Source: Chthonomonadaceae bacterium (GTDB taxonomy: Bacteria; Armatimonadota; Chthonomonadetes; Chthonomonadales; Chthonomonadaceae). Taken from it: DNA of 37,140 nt. The position numbers were made by a program, and so were the translations under genes. Below are positions 10,194 to 37,140 of the stretch, in pieces. Location of the stretch: positions 1-37,140 of the forward strand of contig DAIDHN010000041.1 in the NCBI GenBank assembly GCA_027459665.1, in the 5' to 3' direction. The notes beneath the pieces were generated by a model. It did not search any database and was not told where the DNA came from. It worked only from the letters and a program-made list of their open reading frames with translations. Numbering within the stretch: position 1 is the first letter of the stretch; every line of letters begins with the position of its first letter.

Positions 10194-12674
10194 CTAATGC
10201 CCTGCCAATACCGGGTAGGGAGTATTCACTCCCCGGGCCTCCGCCCAGAGTATGTGGTTCAACTCGGTCTCGTTCGCCTCGTCGGGGCCGCTCCAGTTTT
10301 GCGCCATGCTCAGCAGCGCCATCTGTTTTCGTTTGCCGTGCAGAGCCTGCGCAGGCGGATTCAGGCTGCCCAGGGGTATTCGCGCAGAGCGCACCTGGTA
10401 GGGTGTTAAATTGGGCTTCTGCATAAAGCAGGCGGTCATCAGCGGGGCGCGGGCATCCATCTGGTTCATGGGGGGCAGCCCAAGCATATGCTCCAGGGTG
10501 CGCAGTATGGAGGTCTGGTTGTAAAAACGGTTCACCACCCTGCCCCGGCGGGTATAGGGGCTGATCACCATGCCCACCGAACGGTGCCCGTCCACATGGT
10601 CCAGGCCGTCCTGGGCGTCGTCTTCGGTAACAAATATACAGGTGCTTTTCCAGAAGCGGCTTTTGCTGAGGGCAGATACGATTCTGCCCAGCGCCAGGTC
10701 GTTGTCTGCCACCATGGCGGCAGGGGTGGGAAAGCCGGGCCGTGTGCCGGATGTATGATCCTGGGGCAGATAGATGAGGGTGAGGGCGGGCATTTTACCC
10801 TGCTTTTCGTACTCGCGCAGCTTATGCAGATAGATTGAGGCGCGCAGCTGATCGGGAATAGAGAGGTTCCAGCCCGGATATTTCGGGTCGCTGTGCCTCT
10901 TCAAACGCGCAACCCCCAGCCCCATGGCAAAGAAAAAATTGCGTTTGCCCTGTTTGTACTGCCGATACAGTGTGCTGAAATTTGCCGCGGGAAACGGCAG
11001 CGCATAGTCCAGCTCTCCAAAATTCTCCACGCTCAGCCCATGATCAAGCGCATCATCCCATATAAACCCGCTGGAAGAATAGGTCACGGGGTCATCGCCA
11101 AAGGTGTAACTGCGGGTGAAGCCTCCAAACGCTTTTTCCAGATGGTCGGTGCAGTTGCCTTCGGTCAGCCAGCTGTGTCCGTCTGCCGATATGGTGCCAT
11201 TGCAGTAGTAATTGTCAAGCAGCACATACTGTCGCGCCAGTGCATGGGCGTTGGGGGTTATGTTTTCTCCATATTCCACCAGTTTCGGGTCGCCGTTTCC
11301 TCTTCGCATATCCCCCAGCACCTGGTCGTAGGTGCGGTTTTCGCGTATGATATACACCACATGCCGTATCAGCGACGGCTGTGCCGCACGCAGCGGCAGC
11401 GGTGCGGGCCTTGCACTGTCTGCTGCTGACCGGCGCTTCAGCCAGAGGTCTTTCAGCACGCGTGCCGTCTCTTTTTTCAGCGCTGCCGCACTGGGCACGC
11501 GGATGCAGTCTACAGTGCCTGCATAATCAAAAACGCTGTAGCCTTTCGCTCCTGCCGGGCGCATTCTTGCTCCTCTGCCTTTTACGTCTGCAACATAGAG
11601 GACGCCGTTTTTCAGCGCCAGACTGCCAGGGTACCACCCTGTTGGTATCCAGCCTTCTACCTGCTGCACGGTGCCGCCGGCATTCAGCCGGTAAACGGCT
11701 GCCGCATTGTTGCCCGCCGCAGCCACATACAGCCTGCGCCCTTGCGCATCGAGGGCAAGTGCATCGGGCGCACTGCCAAACGGCATGCCCGGCACGGGGT
11801 GGACGGCAATAGTTTGCACTACTTTTTTCTGCAGGGTGTTTATCACCGAAATCGTATCCGAGTTGGCATTGGCGCAGTAGAGCATGTGCAGCTGTGAGTT
11901 GAGCTGCAGGTCGCAGGGATGCAGACCTGTTGGTATGCGGGCGGTTGTTTTGCCAGTGCGCAGGTTCACCACCGATATTTCGCCTGTATCGGCAATGCCG
12001 CGGCTGTCTACCGGCACCGGCGTGCCTGCAGAAAATGCAGAAGCTTCTCCCTTGCGGGCGTGCCTGCCCCCCCAGTCGGATACGTAGGCGGTGCCGCCGG
12101 AAGCGGAAAGCGCTACCGTCCAGGGTGCCGCACCGGTTGGAATGGAAGAGACTACCGTGAGGGTACGCAGGTTCACGCATACCAGTGTGTTTGCAATGGA
12201 GTTGCATACCCATGCCCTCGCCCCGTCCCGGCTGAGCGCTATGCCGCAGGGCATGGCGGCGCCGCCGGCATGCAGGCCGGCAAGGGCAACGCTCCCTTTC
12301 CATACAAAGCGCTTCCCATCGCGGCGGGCAATGTAGAGGCTGTTCTGTGCGCTGTCTGCCAGAATTGTGCTGCCGTTTTTGCTAAACACTATGCCGTGCA
12401 TCGAACCGCCGCCCGCAGGAAAAGGGAGTTTTTGCAGCACTGCGTATGTTTTGCTGCTTAGTATCTCTATGCCCTGGTTGTCTTTCACGGCAAGCAAACT
12501 GCCGTAAGGGGATGCTGCAATGTCTACCGGTCTGGCAGGCAGCACAATTGCCCTGCCCGCAGGGTGAATTACCTGGCCGTCGGGCAGCAGAAAGCCACCC
12601 TCAAAACGGCCAGCCGTATGGCTGCCCGGCGTTGCCACGCCGGCAAAGGCCAGCAGCACAAGCAAAGATTTCAT
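10194..12674 (-). CDS. Secreted YVTN beta-propeller / phosphoesterase fusion
   Basis: 826 residues from ATG 12674, with signal peptide MKSLLVLLAFAGVATPG. The first half carries YVTN-type propeller repeats (AWVCNSIANTLVCVNLRTLT, TAYVSDWGG, GEISVVNLRTGKTTARIPTG, LYCANANSDTISVINTLQKK, LYVAAAGNNAAAVYRL). The second half is a phosphoesterase domain of the alkaline phosphatase superfamily: RHVVYIIRENRTYDQVLGDM, the NYYCNGTISADGHSWLTEG block, PQDHTSGTRPG, VTEDDAQDGLDHVDGHRSV and SPYTRRGRVVNRFYNQTSIL. This matches the known bifunctional YncE-like/alkaline-phosphatase-family proteins. The substrate is unknown (phospholipid or other phosphoester). The open frame extends upstream to 12842, but those residues run through a hairpin and a terminator-like stem, and GGGGG lies just before 12674, so the shorter start is preferred. 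Confidence 0.88.
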   Translation of the reverse strand: MKSLLVLLAFAGVATPGSHTAGRFEGGFLLPDGQVIHPAGRAIVLPARPVDIAASPYGSLLAVKDNQGIEILSSKTYAVLQKLPFPAGGGSMHGIVFSKNGSTILADSAQNSLYIARRDGKRFVWKGSVALAGLHAGGAAMPCGIALSRDGARAWVCNSIANTLVCVNLRTLTVVSSIPTGAAPWTVALSASGGTAYVSDWGGRHARKGEASAFSAGTPVPVDSRGIADTGEISVVNLRTGKTTARIPTGLHPCDLQLNSQLHMLYCANANSDTISVINTLQKKVVQTIAVHPVPGMPFGSAPDALALDAQGRRLYVAAAGNNAAAVYRLNAGGTVQQVEGWIPTGWYPGSLALKNGVLYVADVKGRGARMRPAGAKGYSVFDYAGTVDCIRVPSAAALKKETARVLKDLWLKRRSAADSARPAPLPLRAAQPSLIRHVVYIIRENRTYDQVLGDMRRGNGDPKLVEYGENITPNAHALARQYVLLDNYYCNGTISADGHSWLTEGNCTDHLEKAFGGFTRSYTFGDDPVTYSSSGFIWDDALDHGLSVENFGELDYALPFPAANFSTLYRQYKQGKRNFFFAMGLGVARLKRHSDPKYPGWNLSIPDQLRASIYLHKLREYEKQGKMPALTLIYLPQDHTSGTRPGFPTPAAMVADNDLALGRIVSALSKSRFWKSTCIFVTEDDAQDGLDHVDGHRSVGMVISPYTRRGRVVNRFYNQTSILRTLEHMLGLPPMNQMDARAPLMTACFMQKPNLTPYQVRSARIPLGSLNPPAQALHGKRKQMALLSMAQNWSGPDEANETELNHILWAEARGVNTPYPVLAGH

Positions 12675-12696
12675 TTGTAGCCCCCGTTTCAAAAGT

Positions 12697-12758
12697 GACG
12701 AATTGCAGCACGCTGCATTCAGTGTACCTGAGTGCAGCATGCTGACCCAATTCGTGTC
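12697..12758. repeat. Long imperfect inverted repeat in the leader of the phosphoesterase gene
   Basis: GACGAATTG (12697-12705) with CAGCACGCTGCATTCAG, then the loop TGTAC (12723-12727), then CTGAGTGCAGCATGCTGACC and CAATTCGTGTC to 12758. The arms pair over about 25 positions with a few mismatches and a small bulge. The element ends 23 bases upstream of the phosphoesterase start on the minus strand. It could be an RNA leader structure, a protein-binding site or a small mobile palindrome. I found no second full copy in the window. Confidence 0.6.
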
Positions 12759-12792
12759 GCAGCAAACCCCTGGCGTTTCTGCTGCAAGGCAA

Positions 12793-12821
12793 AAGGCTCT
12801 GAAACTGTGTTTCAGAGCCTT
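12793..12821 (-). terminator. Candidate terminator after the DUF4965 gene
   Basis: A perfect 13-bp stem AAGGCTCTGAAAC / GTTTCAGAGCCTT around a TGT loop, 29 bases beyond the stop of the minus-strand DUF4965 gene. Read leftwards the stem ends in a TTTT run (partly from the stem itself) before GCC. Read rightwards it is followed by GCTTTTTTC, so it might work in both directions. It separates the DUF4965 gene from the phosphoesterase gene. Confidence 0.65.
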
Positions 12822-12849
12822 GCTTTTTTCTTTCTGCAGCACAGCAGGG

Positions 12850-20384: not shown

Positions 20385-21431
20385 TCAACAAATGCGCGGC
20401 AGCTGTTCACCGCTCAGCATGTAGATGTGCCGCTCTGTGCCATATTTGCTGCAGATCGAAACCCCTGCCGTCTCGCGCTTTTGCACGGTGCCCACTATTT
20501 TCGCCTCACCTGAAACCGATGCGGTGCGAATGGCTTTCAGGGCAGTTTCGGCATCTGCAGCAGGTACAAAAGCAACAAACCTGCCTTCATTAGCAATGTA
20601 CAGCGGGTCGTACCCCAGCAATTCACATGCCGCACGCACCGAAGCAGACACAGGTATCGCTTCTTCGCGCAGGTGTATGAATGTGCCCGATGCCTGTGCA
20701 ATTTCCACCAGAACGCTTGCCATGCCGCCCCTTGTCAGATCGCGCAGGCAGTGTACTTCGGCGCCGCTGTTGAGCAGTATGGTCACTGCACTGTTCAGCG
20801 GGGCGCAGTCGCTGGCGGTGTCGCAGTAGTCCAGCATATCCTCACGCGCTGCCAGTATTGCAATGCCGTGCCTGCCAATATCACCCGAAAGTATCACCGC
20901 ATCGCCGGGCTGCACGCGGTGCGGACCAATATCCACCCCGTCGCGCACTATACCTACGCCGGCAGTATTTATGTACATGCCGTCGCACCGACCACGCTCC
21001 ACTACTTTTGTATCTCCGGTCACAATGCGCACACCGGCAGTTCTGGCAGCAGTTTGCATGTCAGATACCACTGCCTGCAGATGCTCCAGCGGCAGCCCTT
21101 CTTCCAGAATCAGCCCCGCGCTAATCGCAACAGGATAGGCGCCGCTCATGCTCAGGTCGTTTACCGTGCCGTTCACAGCCAGTGAGCCAATGCTGCCCCC
21201 CTGAAAAAACAGGGGGCGCACCACATACGAATCGGTGGTGAAAGCCAGCTGAATTTTCTCTACCTGCAGCAGCGCACTGTCGTGACGGGCAGCGCCCTCC
21301 GGGTTGCCAAAAGCCGGAAGCAGAATTTCTTCTATCAGCTGCTGCATCTTGCTGCCGCCACCGCCATGGGCCATCTCTACCCTGCCGCGATTCTCGATGG
21401 GTACGGGGCACCCTGAAAGAATCCCGCTCAT
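20385..21431 (-). CDS. hypE: Hydrogenase maturation protein HypE (carbamoyl dehydratase)
   Basis: Converts the carbamoyl group transferred by HypF onto its C-terminal cysteine into a thiocyanate, the source of the cyanide ligands of the [NiFe] site. Visible are the [17 protein letters not shown]-terminal block, [16 protein letters not shown], the ATP site region [24 protein letters not shown], the [14 protein letters not shown] block and the essential C-terminus PRIC. 348 residues from ATG 21431, which overlaps the hypD stop as ATGA. The longer frame to 21467 would lie inside hypD. Confidence 0.97.
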
Positions 21432-22519
21432 TTCGCACCTCTTCCATACTGGTAATATGCAGCGCATACCCCCTCGCTTGATACCATCGGCGCCCCCAGG
21501 GGATGATCAGGAGTACATTGAATTTTGTACACCGGGCAGTCTACAGGAGAAGCGCGGCCCTGCAGTATCAATCCGCTGATGCAATCGGGGCACTCTTCTG
21601 AATGAATTTCTTGCAGGCAAAACCTTTTTTCTGCGTCAAAGGCTGCGTACTCTTTCCGAATACCCAGGCCGCTCCCTGGCAGCGCGCCTATTCCGCGCCA
21701 TACCCTCTGTTCTGTTTCAAAAACCTGCTGCACCATGTAGCGCGCATGTAAGTTGCCATCCTCTTTCACTACTCGCGGGTAGGCGTTTTCCACCTCATGC
21801 CGCCCTTCTTCCAGCTGCCGCACGCACATCTGAACGCCGTACAAAATGTCTACCGGTTCAAAACCCGTTACCACAATGGGCACCTGGTATCTCTCTGCCA
21901 GCGGTTCGTACATTCTTGTGCCCATCACGGTACAAACGTGCCCCGCGGCTAATATGCCCTGCACTTTGCAGTCTGGCTCTTTTAGAAGCGCCTGCAGCAC
22001 AGGTGGCACCATTACGTGAGAAACCAGCAGAGAAAAATTCAACAATTCTCTGCGATACGCCTGTAATATGGCAAGCGCATTGGCGGGCGCTGTCGTTTCA
22101 AACCCTACTGCAAAAAACACTACTTCCCGCTGCAAATTGTTTTCTGCAATCTTCACAGCATCCAGCGGCGAATACACCACGCGCACGTCTGCACCTTCAG
22201 AGCGTGCAGCTAGCAAATCGCCTTTTGTGCCTGGCACGCGCAGCATGTCTCCAAACGAACAGAGTATAACATTGTGATCTTTGGCAAGCGCTATGGCCCT
22301 GTCAATCTTCTCTACCGGGGTAACGCACACAGGGCAGCCCGGCCCGTGCAGCAGGGTAATCTGGGGGGGCAGCAGCGCATCCAGACCATACTTTACAATG
22401 GAATGCGTCTGCCCGCCGCACACTTCCATCAGGGTCCAGTTTTTGGTAGTAGTTCGGTGCAGGGCTTCGGCAACTGCTTTTACCAGTTCCGGCTTTTGGT
22501 AAATATCCTTGTATTTCAT
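21428..22519 (-). CDS. hypD: Hydrogenase maturation protein HypD
   Basis: [4Fe-4S] protein that, with HypC, assembles the Fe(CN)2CO group of [NiFe] hydrogenases. 363 residues. Conserved cysteine blocks are present: [59 protein letters not shown] and the iron-sulfur region [21 protein letters not shown]. Both ends overlap neighbours (hypC upstream and hypE downstream), consistent with a translationally coupled operon. Confidence 0.97.
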
Positions 22520-22770
22520 TCCAGCCCCTCCTCATATTCAAACTCCACTCCTGCATGCTCAAGTTCTGCCAGACATTGTATTGCTTCTTCTTCAGGAAGA
22601 ATGCTGATGGCTACTCCAACATGTACCAGCACGTAGTCGCCAGGCACAGCCTCTGGCACGCAGCTCAGGTTCACCTCGCGCAAAACGCCGCCGAAGTCCA
22701 CAGTGCCGCTGTACATCCATTCCTGTACGGGCTTTACATCCCTAATTCTCCCAGGTACTGCCAGGCACAT
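22516..22770 (-). CDS. hypC: Hydrogenase assembly chaperone HypC
   Basis: 84-residue chaperone that binds HypD and the hydrogenase large-subunit precursor. The N-terminus MCLAVPGRI holds the essential Cys2, and [17 protein letters not shown] and [15 protein letters not shown] follow the family pattern. AAGGAG stands 6 bases before the start, inside the end of hypF (29-base overlap). The 3' end overlaps hypD by 4 bases. Confidence 0.97.
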
Positions 22771-25060
22771 GTTCTTCTCCTTTCCATAGTGCAGTCACCG
22801 CCTGCCCCAGTGCTATGCCTCCATCTCCTGCCGGTGTGTTTACAGACCAGAATGGCTCAAAGCCGGCTTGCTGCAGCAGCGCTACCGTTTTCTCCAGCAA
22901 ATACACGTTCTGAAAACAGCCGCCGCAAAGCCCTACCCGCCGCCGATTTGCGTGCAGCGCTACCTGCACAATGCCCTGCGCCAGTCCGTTGTGAAACCGT
23001 CTGGCCATGCATTCCATAGCTGCTTCTGCCTTCACATCTGCCAGCAGTTCCTGCACAAGCGGCTCCCAGTTCAGTTCAAGTATCTCTTTTTGCTCAAGAT
23101 GCATTGTATAGGCGGCAGAATCGCTGCTGCTCTCTGCCAATGCCTGCCACTCTAAGGCAGCCTGTACTTCATATTCCGCCTCCTGCCTGCCCCCTGCCAA
23201 AGCGTAGGCTGCATCAAACAGCCGACCTGCACTGTGCGTCACCGGGCAGTTGATTCCACGCTGCAGCATGGCGCGCAGCATTCCGATTTCTTTCTCTGTC
23301 AAGCCTGCAAATGGCGGCAGCCAACTCTGTTCAAATGCCTCTTCGCCTTTGCAGGCATATAGCAGACCCAGTGCAGAACGGCGGGGAGAGCGTGCAGCAG
23401 CATCGCCTCCCGGCAGCACAAACGGCCGCAGAGTCGCTATGCGATGCAAAGGCGCGTACAAACTTCCTGTAAAAAACTCTCCGCCCCATATGCTTCCATC
23501 TTCCCCCAGCCCGGTTCCATCCCATGCAATGCAGAGTGCATTTTCCTCCACCTGGTTTTCTGCCAGGCAGGCATAGGCATGCGCCATGTGGTGCTGCACT
23601 TTCTTTAGAGGCAGGCCGCATTGTTCGGCATGCCGCGTGCTGAAGTAATCGGGATGCATGTCGCAGCGCGCCATCTGCGGCCGAATGCCCAGCAAATGCT
23701 GCAGTTCTACCGCCTCCCGCCGGTAATTGCTGCCAGATGCAGCGGTTTCGAGGTCGCCCATATGCTGGCTCAAAAACGCATGCCTGCCAAAAGCCAGGCA
23801 AAAGGTGTTTTTCTGGTGCGCACCCGCAGCAAACAGTGCAGGCACTTCTGCTGGCAGCAGAACAGGCAGAGGGGCATACCCGCGCGACCTGCGCAGCACG
23901 GCAACCCCGCCCAGCACTGTTTGTACTACAGAGTCGTCTATGGGCCGTACAATAGCTCGGTTGTATACAAGAAAACAGTCTGCAATGCCCGCCAGACGCT
24001 GCAGGGCTTCCTGCACCCCTGTGCAAATTGGTTCCTCGCTCAAATTGCCGCTGGTGGCAATCATAGGCCCCAGGGGCGGTTCCATCAACAGCGCCTGCAG
24101 CGGACTTGCCGGCAGCATGATTCCCAGCCGCGATGTGCCCGGTGCAGTTTCTGGCGCAATCATGCCCGCTGTTCGCCTCTGCATCAACACAATGGGGCGT
24201 TCTACGCTTTCCAGCGCTCTCTTTTCCAGGTCGGTTATCATGCAAAGCTGTTCTGCCTGCTGCACATTCGCACACAACATGGCAAAGGGTTTGGCTTCGC
24301 GGTGCTTGCGGGCGCGCAGCTGCTGCACTGCTTTCGGCTGTGCGGCATCTGCCATCAGGTGAAAACCGCCCACGCCCTGCACTGCCGCAATATCCCCTGC
24401 CAGCAGTCTCTCCCTTGCCCGCTGCAGCGCGTCTTCCCCAGTACACAGCACAAGCCCCTGCCGATTCAGCAGCGACAGCTGCGGGCCGCATACCGGGCAT
24501 GCAGTTGGCTGCGCATGAAAACGCCTGTTGAGCGGGTTTTCATACTCTGCCAGGCAGGCGGGGCACATGGCGAAGTCGGCCATAGAGGTATTGCAGCGGT
24601 CGTAGGGCAGCCGGTAGAGTATCGAGAACCGCGGGCCGCAAAGAGTGCAGTTCAGAAACGGATAGCGGTACCTTCGGTTGGAGCGGTCGTTCATCTCCTG
24701 CAGACACTCTGTGCAGGGGGCAAGGTCAGGAAGAATCAGGGTGGAGGCAGCGCCTCTGCTGTCTGAAGCCAGTATGCGAAAGCCCTGCCCGCCCTTGCAG
24801 GCCATCCAGTTTTGCTCGATGTTTTCCAGCATGCAGTGCGGCGGCTTTTCATCTACCAGGCGCTGAACAAATATCTCCAGCAGTTCTGGTTCAGCCTCTG
24901 CTTCTATCTCTACCCCCTGGCCGCTGTTGGCTGTAAAACCGGCGATTCCCATGCTGTGGGCAAGCCTGTAAATAGCAGGCCGAAAACCAACTCCCTGCAC
25001 CACACCATTCATTCTGAGGTGCATGCGAGCCTTTTTTTGGTTTGCCAGCGCCTGTTTCAC
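22742..25060 (-). CDS. hypF: Carbamoyltransferase HypF
   Basis: Makes and transfers the carbamoyl group to HypE for cyanide-ligand synthesis. Full set of domains in 772 residues: an acylphosphatase-like domain with GVVQGVGFRPAIYRLA, two zinc-finger pairs (CTECLQEMNDR...CTLCGPRF and CPACLAEY...CPVCGPQ), a YrdC-like domain (VQGVGGFHLMADA, KHREAKPFAMLC, ATSGNLSEEPI) and the Kae1-like domain with HHMAHAYACLAE, AWDGTGLGEDG and GLCGGCFQN. The start is GTG at 25060, with GGGAG about 8 bases upstream. The ATG 12 codons later (MHLRMNG) is an alternative. First gene of the hyp operon, and divergent from the small gene at 25211. Confidence 0.96.
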   Translation of the reverse strand: MKQALANQKKARMHLRMNGVVQGVGFRPAIYRLAHSMGIAGFTANSGQGVEIEAEAEPELLEIFVQRLVDEKPPHCMLENIEQNWMACKGGQGFRILASDSRGAASTLILPDLAPCTECLQEMNDRSNRRYRYPFLNCTLCGPRFSILYRLPYDRCNTSMADFAMCPACLAEYENPLNRRFHAQPTACPVCGPQLSLLNRQGLVLCTGEDALQRARERLLAGDIAAVQGVGGFHLMADAAQPKAVQQLRARKHREAKPFAMLCANVQQAEQLCMITDLEKRALESVERPIVLMQRRTAGMIAPETAPGTSRLGIMLPASPLQALLMEPPLGPMIATSGNLSEEPICTGVQEALQRLAGIADCFLVYNRAIVRPIDDSVVQTVLGGVAVLRRSRGYAPLPVLLPAEVPALFAAGAHQKNTFCLAFGRHAFLSQHMGDLETAASGSNYRREAVELQHLLGIRPQMARCDMHPDYFSTRHAEQCGLPLKKVQHHMAHAYACLAENQVEENALCIAWDGTGLGEDGSIWGGEFFTGSLYAPLHRIATLRPFVLPGGDAAARSPRRSALGLLYACKGEEAFEQSWLPPFAGLTEKEIGMLRAMLQRGINCPVTHSAGRLFDAAYALAGGRQEAEYEVQAALEWQALAESSSDSAAYTMHLEQKEILELNWEPLVQELLADVKAEAAMECMARRFHNGLAQGIVQVALHANRRRVGLCGGCFQNVYLLEKTVALLQQAGFEPFWSVNTPAGDGGIALGQAVTALWKGEEHVPGSTWEN

Positions 25061-34552: not shown

Positions 34553-34602
34553 TGTGCCGCCCAGACCGCCAGAGGGTGCTGCCCCGGCGGCACATGTTGT
34601 TT
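34553..34602 (+). terminator. Candidate terminator after the GNAT gene
   Basis: A 9-bp perfect stem TGTGCCGCC (34553-34561) / GGCGGCACA (34586-34594) followed by TGTTGTTT on the plus strand. The 24-base loop is long but can form inner pairs. The T tract overlaps the last codons of the convergent gene. Confidence 0.5.
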
Positions 34603-36755
34603 CACCGCATGGCTGTCTGCTGTATCTTGCGCGGAGGCGCCAGGGTCACGGGCATTGTCGCTGCAATCACAGGGGTTCCATGGTCCCATACTTCCACCAC
34701 TGCAATGTAAGGCGGCCAGGTTTTGTTTCGTTTCACAAATGGAGTGCGGTTTCCGCCATCCGGGCGCACCAGTATGTTTACTTCATTCTGGTTTGGAGCA
34801 ACGTTCTGCGCATCCGCCACCCATCCATTTGGCAGACCTACCAAACGCACCACCAGGTTATCTGAGTAACCAGGGGTGCGGTAGATATGCACAGGCACCT
34901 GCACCCCGCCATGCTGACGAATGGCCAGCGGCCCATGCATTGTAACTGAAGCTGCAAAGGATGCTGCAGTGGAAACCTCCAGTACGGCAGTGGGGCGAGT
35001 GTGGTAGTACATGCTGAAAATCATTTTGTAAGGCTGCTGGGGTATGCAGCGCACCGTAACTGTTTGACCATGGCCATTGGAGGCGGCGGCATGAATCTGG
35101 AACGGGGTGATTACAGCCGGTGCGCTGCCAGAGGCGGTAAGTATCAGATATGCCCTGTACTGGTCTGGAGCAATTTGCAGCGGTGCTGCATGTACATGAG
35201 CCGGCAGACCAGAGGCGGTAATCGTAATTGGCCCGGCAATTCCCTGCCTTCGCATTACCCTCAGTTCTACCGCCGTACTACCGCCAGCTTGCAGCAAAGC
35301 CGTGTCTGGCCGCTGCATAACCTTCAGCAGAGGCGAATTTGGCTGCACGTTTACACAGTACACGCGCCGGGCATCGGCCTGCGGTGCAGTTACCCTCAGC
35401 GTATAGGTTTGATTACCGGGCAGATAGGCATCAAACCGCTCACCGTCATGCTGCCGGTTCACTACCTTGCCCTGTGCATTCAGCAGTTCCATATCTACTT
35501 CCCCGCTGCCACCTAGAGAGGAAGCGTACAAGCGAAACTCATATCCGCCCGGCCCCCGCATGGAAAAGTTGTCGGTTTGGCCCGGCCGCACAATGCGCCC
35601 GGTCAGCACTACCGGCCCATGCAGTATGCCTGCCGAGGCGGTATCGCTGACTACCTGCGAACGGGTAACGTAAAACGACTGCGGCCCCCAGGGGGTGGCA
35701 ACCTGTGTAAAACCGCTTTCACTGGGAGTTTGTACAATGCATGCAGGGGTCTGACCTCCTGTGTCCTGCCCTATCAGCTGTACCTGCACCTTTTGATTCA
35801 CCCTGCCTGCAGGAGGATAAACCAGGGTGTTGTAGGGCAGTGCTCCCATGGTAAGTCGGTAAACACTGGCGGGGTTGCTGTGCCCCAGCAAATCGCGCAC
35901 TTCCAGAATATACACACCGGTTTTGGGGCAGGTCCAGTCTAGCAGCGGGTCAAGTTCATAGTAGCCGCTGTTTTCTGCAATCTTGTTGCCATTGGGGTCG
36001 TATAGCCTGAGTTGAGGATTGAAAAATAGCTGGGTGTCTCTGTTGTAGCGAAATGCTTTCAGGTCGAACACGTATCGTTTGCCTTGTGCGGCCTGGAAGT
36101 TGAATCGATCCAGTTCGGAGTTTTGTGCAATACATCCGTTTACAACGCAAGGCAGATCAACATGCTGGGAAAGCAGCTTTGGCCCGGAGGGGATAGCCGT
36201 CACTTCGGGCAGACTGCCCACTTCAAAGGGGGCAGCAGAAGACACCCCGTGCGGTGTAACCACACGCAGCAGATAAATTCCGGGAACAGTTTGAGGGGCA
36301 ATATGAATATGCACTACTACTTTGGTGGCGCGGGCAGCGCTCTGCAGGTACTGTATAATCTGATCAGCCTGCTGAGGTGATATAGGGGCCTGATGCATGG
36401 TGATCATGCGATGTACGGTATCTGCCCACTGCTGGGGAGAAAGATCGCGGTTCGCTGGCGAACGCAGTTCGTGGCAGGTACCGCAGCTCGATTTCCACAC
36501 TGGCTCAAACCGCGTGTCTACGTGGCTCTGATCATCGCGCACTGTCCCCGTAATTCCGGGCTGATACACCAACAGTTTGTGCGCCCCTGTTAGATTGCTG
36601 CCGCGCATCTGCACATCTACCGTAGTGCCTGCCTTTGCCCCTGCCGGAGAAAAGGTTTGTATGGTAGGCAGATTCAGTATTTCCTGTGCCATCGCACTGC
36701 CAGGCAGCACAACCGCCAGGCAGAAAGCTAATCGAAGCAGCGCCTTGTTCTTCAT
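34602..36755 (-). CDS. Exported heme-c / PPC-domain protein with apparently inserted heme domain
   Basis: 717 residues from ATG 36755, with GAGGAA 7 bases upstream and signal peptide MKNKALLRLAFCLAVVLPGS then AMA. Residues 30-72 (IQTFSPAGAKAGTTVDVQMR, GSNLTGAHKLLVY) look like the first half of an Ig/TIG-type domain common in planctomycete exported proteins. A heme-c segment follows with C91-G-T-C94-H95 and QQWADTVHRMITMHQAPIS, resembling the small heme domains of quinohemoprotein-type enzymes, with Met residues available as the axial ligand. Then VVVHIHIAPQTVPGIYLLRV and SSAAPFEVGSLPEV resume what looks like the second half of the same Ig/TIG domain. A PPC domain (NSELDRFNFQAAQGKRYVFD) and further beta-rich domains complete the protein. 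Redox partner and role are unknown. The start overlaps the WD40 gene stop as ATGA. Confidence 0.8.
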   Translation of the reverse strand: MKNKALLRLAFCLAVVLPGSAMAQEILNLPTIQTFSPAGAKAGTTVDVQMRGSNLTGAHKLLVYQPGITGTVRDDQSHVDTRFEPVWKSSCGTCHELRSPANRDLSPQQWADTVHRMITMHQAPISPQQADQIIQYLQSAARATKVVVHIHIAPQTVPGIYLLRVVTPHGVSSAAPFEVGSLPEVTAIPSGPKLLSQHVDLPCVVNGCIAQNSELDRFNFQAAQGKRYVFDLKAFRYNRDTQLFFNPQLRLYDPNGNKIAENSGYYELDPLLDWTCPKTGVYILEVRDLLGHSNPASVYRLTMGALPYNTLVYPPAGRVNQKVQVQLIGQDTGGQTPACIVQTPSESGFTQVATPWGPQSFYVTRSQVVSDTASAGILHGPVVLTGRIVRPGQTDNFSMRGPGGYEFRLYASSLGGSGEVDMELLNAQGKVVNRQHDGERFDAYLPGNQTYTLRVTAPQADARRVYCVNVQPNSPLLKVMQRPDTALLQAGGSTAVELRVMRRQGIAGPITITASGLPAHVHAAPLQIAPDQYRAYLILTASGSAPAVITPFQIHAAASNGHGQTVTVRCIPQQPYKMIFSMYYHTRPTAVLEVSTAASFAASVTMHGPLAIRQHGGVQVPVHIYRTPGYSDNLVVRLVGLPNGWVADAQNVAPNQNEVNILVRPDGGNRTPFVKRNKTWPPYIAVVEVWDHGTPVIAATMPVTLAPPRKIQQTAMR

Positions 36756-37140
36756 CTGCCATTCCTCTTCACATATTTCTTTTTGATGTATTTCTTTTTG
36801 ATGTACTTTTTGACTGGGTGATGCACAGGCTTTTTCGCAGCATGAGGCGGCGCAGGCAGCGGCGGCGGAGCCAGAATGTGTGTCACATTTCCGGTTGACG
36901 TATCCCACACATACAAATAGCCGTCTCTGCCGCCTCCATAGGCGGTTTTGCCGTGCATGCTCAGCGCAACCGCATAAAACATGGTTTTACCTACTGTCCA
37001 TGTTTTCATTCGGTTTCCATTGCCTGCATTCCAAAGCGCTTCTGTGCCATCCATCCCGCAGGTAATCATGGTTTGCCTGTCTCCAGACAGAGCAAGACTG
37101 TTTACCCCGTTTTTATGCGCCAGAAAAGACCTGAAGTTGT
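36752..37140 (-). CDS. WD40 repeat protein, 5' end beyond the right edge
   Basis: The frame is open to the edge. It begins in view with NFRSFLAHKNGVNSLALSGD and continues RQTMITCGMDGTEALWNAGN, then MFYAVALSMHGKTAYGGGRD and GYLYVWDTSTGNVTHI. That is at least two WD40 blades ending in W-N/W-D. The propeller is followed by a Pro/Ala linker and a strongly basic tail with repeats of KKYIK ending KRNGR. In Planctomycetes and relatives, WD40 proteins often pair with heme-c/PPC proteins, and here the two genes overlap by 4 bases. The missing N-terminus prevents a call on export or further heme domains. Confidence 0.8.
   Translation of the reverse strand, partial: NFRSFLAHKNGVNSLALSGDRQTMITCGMDGTEALWNAGNGNRMKTWTVGKTMFYAVALSMHGKTAYGGGRDGYLYVWDTSTGNVTHILAPPPLPAPPHAAKKPVHHPVKKYIKKKYIKKKYVKRNGR
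36775..36814. repeat. 15-bp tandem repeat encoding the basic KKYIK tail
   Basis: ATTTCTTTTTGATGT occurs at 36775-36789 and 36790-36804, identical, followed by a degenerate third unit (ACTTTTTGAC...). Unit length 15 keeps the frame and adds five residues (KKYIK) per copy to the WD40 protein tail on the minus strand. Confidence 0.8.

Follow-up and report, generated by a model that had tools for sequence, protein, structure and literature searches.

Gene clusters of the PSCyt2/PSD1–DUF1501 type, recognised by a DUF1549/DUF1553 gene adjacent to a DUF1501 gene, were described as 'planctomycete-specific' and are of unknown function, with carbohydrate metabolism having been suggested from context alone (PMC5615132). 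In a separate group of proteins, sCache_heme (DUF3365/Tll0287), a cytochrome-c-derived piece of 13 residues around the heme motif was inserted into a Cache fold, itself a non-heme extracytoplasmic domain (PMC12889525). The small monoheme c-type plan, CxxCH...W...M...YL, is exemplified by SorB (PDB 2blf), which has 81 residues and is a free-standing subunit of the molybdenum enzyme sulfite dehydrogenase, and His/Met heme ligands are reported for the related SorU, another heme protein of sulfite oxidation (PMC4760952). In the alpha subunit of quinohemoprotein amine dehydrogenase (QHNDH), a heme domain with two CxxCH motifs precedes the Ig domains. QHNDH also possesses a beta-propeller subunit.

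Results

The window, by which we mean the whole stretch of DNA that was analysed (37,140 nucleotides), is the entire contig C41 from a genome of 3.67 Mb (completeness 99.9%). Close to one end it carries, on the minus strand, a gene for a 717-aa protein that starts with ATG, together with the following features:

36752..37138, minus strand, WD40 partner gene, 3′ part, cut at the contig end and continuing on the end of contig C9 (PF00400)
36752..36755, minus strand, ATGA, the WD40 stop codon overlapping the heme-TIG start codon (from sequence)
34602..36755, minus strand, gene of the heme-TIG-PPC protein, 717 aa (open frame and full-length relatives)
36687..36755, minus strand, probable signal peptide, residues 1-23 (sequence reading)
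36540..36674, minus strand, first half of the TIG/Ig domain, residues ~28-72 (alignment of insert-free relatives and fold match)
36321..36539, minus strand, cytochrome-c-like inserted module, residues ~73-145 (loop lengths in 79 proteins; SorB and QHNDH matches)
36471..36485, minus strand, heme-binding motif CGTCH, residues 91-95 (from sequence; invariant in 47 distinct copies)
36405..36407, minus strand, Met117, candidate distal heme ligand (invariant; aligns with the SorB and QHNDH Met)
36213..36320, minus strand, second half of the TIG/Ig domain, residues ~146-181 (alignment of insert-free relatives and fold match)
35895..36110, minus strand, PPC domain core, residues 216-287 (PF04151, E 2.1e-5)

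Judged from its sequence, the product is an exported TIG-PPC-Ig protein: the N-terminus reads as hydrophobic and signal-like, closing with ...PGSAMAQ, and PF04151 scored 25.7 bits, just under its cut-off of 25.9. Since the two WD40 parts on C9 and C41 fit the relatives, apart from a gap of roughly two or three residues where they meet, we infer from this protein alignment that the contigs join and that the genes form one operon, DUF1549/DUF1553 – DUF1501 – WD40 – heme-TIG, of which the first two genes and the first part of the WD40 gene lie at the end of C9. The adjacent DUF1549/DUF1553 and DUF1501 genes are those that define a PSCyt2/PSD1–DUF1501 cluster, and the DUF1549/DUF1553 protein of the host carries a CxxCH of its own. 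BLAST searches with the operon members recovered the same gene order in relatives. That the WD40 partner is encoded together with the heme-TIG gene, as initially annotated, is borne out by their place in the same operon and by the 4-nt ATGA overlap, which would fit translational coupling. The planctomycete affinity read from the wording of the protein did not hold, given that the relatives at 38-55% identity are Chthonomonadaceae/Chthonomonas MAGs (Armatimonadota); remoter ones belong to other Armatimonadota and to Candidatus Poribacteria. We accordingly assign the host to the Chthonomonas family within Armatimonadota. Elsewhere on the minus strand of the window, HypF, HypD and AIR-synthase-like (HypE-type) genes for NiFe-hydrogenase maturation stand in a row (20388-25060), and a protein of 882 aa (10197-12842) has a YNCE/lactonase-like beta-propeller together with a phosphoesterase domain.

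The initial annotation had read residues 30-72 and the stretch after about residue 150 as two halves of one TIG-like domain, split by a heme-c segment. Across 101 genomes, comprising the host and its relatives, we found many TIG-PPC-Ig proteins of the same layout without CxxCH, and N-terminal alignment matched both flanks of the heme segment to one continuous domain in them. The two-halves reading therefore stands, because these relatives join the same flanks; its first boundary shifts only slightly, to residues ~28-72, and the second, placed close to its position, is now at ~146. Because a fold search with the whole protein was swamped by the PPC and Ig repeats and was uninformative for the N-terminus, we built a separate model of the N-terminal domain. 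AlphaFold2 gave the order strands, helices, strands both for the mature protein (pLDDT 88.5) and for residues 25-187 (pLDDT 88.4). With VIA-align, the N-terminal domain matched QHNDH alpha at its domain III (Z 10.4, 79 residues, rmsd 1.7) and the IPT/TIG domains of plexin, EBF and NFAT (Z 8.6-9.3, 83-91 residues, model range 3-162), the matches taking in both flanks as one domain. As in IPT/TIG folds, one beta-sandwich is built from both flanks in the predicted model. This structure-model check of the flanks had been set beforehand as the refuting test, and it returned one predicted domain, not two.

Pfam saw no TIG domain (PF01833) in the window protein, whether intact or with its flanks joined in silico, and some relatives matched PF01833 weakly (best E 7.7e-4). 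The lack of a match in the window protein might speak for two complete, separate domains on either side of an ordinary cytochrome domain, with no insertion. However, the flanks are short, at about 45 and 36 residues, they are directly joined in bare relatives, and fold matches of 79-91 residues bridge them both (rmsd 1.7-2.7). Bare relatives and fold alignment together lead us to reject separate flanking domains, a reading to which we give virtually no credence. The Cache family likewise had no Pfam match in the window protein, the N-terminal domain of which matches TIG/IPT folds instead. Bare relatives and the single-domain fold alignment thus agree on a cytochrome-c-like segment lying inside one Ig/TIG domain, as had been proposed; in the literature covered, which included few subscription papers, we found no published case of a c-type cytochrome module within a TIG/Ig domain.

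The motif given in the initial annotation as C91-x-x-C94-H95 proved to be C91-G-T-C94-H95, the sole CxxCH of the 717-aa protein. The segment around it is indeed helical and CxxCH-bearing, although it comprises ~73 rather than about 75 residues. Twelve positions (C, C, H, R, S, P, N, R, W, R, M and A) do not vary across 47 distinct heme segments from proteins with overall identities down to 30%, which argues that the CxxCH is not there by chance. CxxCH and a conserved distal Met, by which small c-type cytochromes are recognised, were both found in these 47 copies. Residues 85-139 matched the NCBIfam models of SorB (E 9.5e-8; 32 of 93 bits, below the cut-off) and QHNDH alpha (E 8e-6, below the cut-off), and the window protein scored 16.8 bits with PF09098 and 16.7 bits with PF13442, short of their cut-offs of 25.2 and 27, respectively. 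A Poribacterial relative with two module copies exceeded the PF09098 cut-off with 44.1 bits. When the PDB was searched with a profile built from 15 heme segments, the top two matches were QHNDH alpha (7.7e-6) and SorB (3.6e-5). At sequence level, the inserted piece resembles the small c-type cytochromes SorB and QHNDH alpha domain I. It would bind heme covalently through C91 and C94, with His95 and Met117 as the probable ligands, and the invariance of Met117 suggests a six-coordinate electron-transfer heme. CcmF/CcmC-like genes for cytochrome c maturation are present on contig C9 of the host, and the search for such genes did not find ResB.

In principle, the CxxCH segment might not work as a cytochrome at all, being either apo or a structural insert only, and the same hairpin does carry a cysteine-poor helical insert in another lineage. 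This is very improbable in our view, as the C, C, H and M are strictly kept in all 47 copies, the segment is like the true cytochromes SorB and QHNDH, and the host has cytochrome maturation genes.

Among 79 proteins, the hairpin occurs in three states: bare, with 5-30 residues linking the flanks; with the heme module, at 74-76 residues; or with an unrelated, helical and cysteine-poor insert of 58 to about 100 residues. In an unrooted tree of these proteins, calculated with the insert columns left out, all 23 heme-TIG proteins fall on one side of a single branch (SH-aLRT 100), requiring one change. The 18 proteins with the helical insert are likewise split off by one branch, and bare hairpins fill the remaining tree. 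To our knowledge, TIG domains are generally without an insert at this hairpin, which makes a single gain the simplest reading of the unrooted tree. We are highly confident of the nested architecture and the single origin of the heme module. Decay of a heme module into the helical insert is rejected, as profile comparison showed no similarity (probability 7%) and the proteins with this insert do not form the sister group of the heme clade. A phage origin was likewise rejected, PHROGs giving no match. Second copies of the heme module occur near residue ~450 in Poribacteria (L091-L106), in the TIG2–PPC2 linker, and at the extreme C-terminus of the TIG protein in G057 and G079 (L053/L054). No WD40 gene was found between the DUF1501 and TIG genes in G079 and G057.

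The loci related to the operon, found by BLAST with its members and scored for CxxCH by motif inspection, differ in which protein carries heme. The DUF1549 neighbour has CxxCH in 13/13 heme-TIG loci where it is visible, in 11/11 bare-TIG operons counted and in 0/16 operons with the helical insert (L058, L060, L061, L063, L064, L066, L069, L070, L073, L128, L135-L137 and L143-L145). In the five helical-insert operons of which the DUF1549 protein was read, the CARCHKHPF loop is absent each time (5/5), and helical-insert loci showed no WD40 gene in the interval from the DUF1501 gene to the TIG gene. The WD40 partners of heme-TIG proteins lack CxxCH throughout (0/31 loci, 14 of which are closely related Poribacteria), and the 11 WD40 partners that do have a PSCyt1-like heme segment, at the N-terminus, are all paired with heme-free TIG proteins. 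A WD40 heme and a TIG heme were never seen together in these 31 and 11 loci. All these co-occurrence counts come from related sequences, with about one evolutionary event behind each.

A strict rule of two hemes per operon is broken by L129, in which a bare TIG protein and a heme-free WD40 protein accompany a DUF1549 protein with heme (one), and by the Poribacteria, in which one TIG protein has two modules and its gene has no DUF1549 neighbour. L129 indicates that the second heme is not obligatory. Genome G057 holds both kinds of operon, with heme on C96 and without heme on C52; the difference is therefore not due to the cytochrome c capacity of the host, and loss of heme for lack of cytochrome maturation is ruled out.

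Sequence comparison thus indicates a four-gene set that carries its heme at different places in different lineages. A more far-reaching and rather speculative account, which we hold to be possible only at modest odds, would have a conserved redox complex in which the second heme switched carrier: the PSCyt1-type heme on the WD40 protein would have been replaced by an unrelated SorB-like module in the TIG protein, the module would later have been duplicated elsewhere in that protein, and a sister lineage would have lost the heme loop of its DUF1549 protein as the helical insert arrived, with the hemes working as a pair.

Discussion

We propose that the Ccm-type system of the host would attach heme c to the TIG protein, with His95 and Met117 as its predicted ligands, and that the TIG-PPC protein may serve as a beta-sandwich scaffold presenting this heme to its operon partners in an extracytoplasmic complex. 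Single electrons might then pass through the heme between either the DUF1549 heme or a substrate oxidised by the complex and an acceptor, which could be soluble or membrane-bound. In doing so, the TIG heme would take on the task of the N-terminal PSCyt1-type domain borne by the WD40 protein in sister operons. We consider the electron-relay role by itself evenly balanced between being right and wrong. The explanation as a whole, with nested module, single change, operon, Ccm attachment and electron relay, is the best at hand and in our opinion somewhat probable.

The heme could also act as a gas or redox sensor, with the TIG/PPC and WD40 parts signalling its state, in the way of heme-bearing Cache domains. 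There is a precedent in a c-heme fragment within an extracytoplasmic sensor domain that binds NO (PMC12889525). However, Pfam and NCBIfam profile searches recognised no transmembrane or signalling domain in the 717-aa protein, which is accompanied in its operon by a heme protein and a DUF1501 protein rather than by a kinase or receptor. The invariant Met points instead to a six-coordinate electron-transfer heme; it is this residue, and the lack of a recognised signalling domain, that make sensing the less likely function, and we rate it as unlikely. The surface location, adhesion and sensing role mentioned in the initial annotation found no support.

Alternatively, the heme-TIG and WD40 proteins could together form a dehydrogenase core on the plan of QHNDH, as a heme/Ig subunit with a beta-propeller subunit. 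Among solved structures, QHNDH alpha comes closest to the heme module and to the TIG domain alike, and a beta-propeller subunit is known in QHNDH. Nevertheless, heme number and domain order differ, the operon supplies DUF1549 and DUF1501 proteins as partners, and the likeness of the TIG domain to QHNDH domain III is also present in heme-free relatives. The gamma subunit family PF08992 was unmatched in the host genome, although the control genomes gave no match either. Such a core seems distinctly improbable, and an electron relay within the DUF1549/DUF1501 operon is the reading we retain.

Compared with QHNDH alpha (PF09098, PF09099; PDB 1jju, 1jmx), the heme module corresponds to domain I and the TIG domain to domain III, yet the layout of an N-terminal diheme domain I followed by II, III and IV is not that of the window protein, which nests one module inside an Ig domain and continues with PPC and Ig-type parts. 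Its partners, moreover, are DUF1549, DUF1501 and WD40 proteins. Because domain order, heme number and neighbours all differ, the window protein is not a QHNDH. It shares with SorB the small monoheme c-type plan, but its module is a TIG insert with no such operon partner as the molybdenum enzyme. With sCache_heme it shares a cytochrome-c-derived piece inside a non-heme extracytoplasmic domain; in the window protein, the host fold is TIG rather than Cache, and the insert is a ~60-residue module with its own Met instead of a short motif fragment. Insertion of a c-heme fragment into Cache domains was already described (PMC12889525), and TIG would be the second kind of host domain for such a piece.

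The gene context is that of the PSCyt2/PSD1–DUF1501 clusters, which have the same neighbours, PSCyt2 (DUF1549), PSD1 (DUF1553), DUF1501 and WD40. In sister clusters, an N-terminal PSCyt1-like heme segment stands ahead of the WD40 repeats and the TIG-PPC protein is heme-free, whereas in the clade of the window the heme is carried by the TIG protein. Such DUF1549/DUF1553/DUF1501 cytochrome clusters are abundant (PMC5615132), and two heme carriers tend to co-occur in them. The comparison names the proteins to be examined as one complex, and the heme-free paralogous version, found even within genome G057, offers a natural control.
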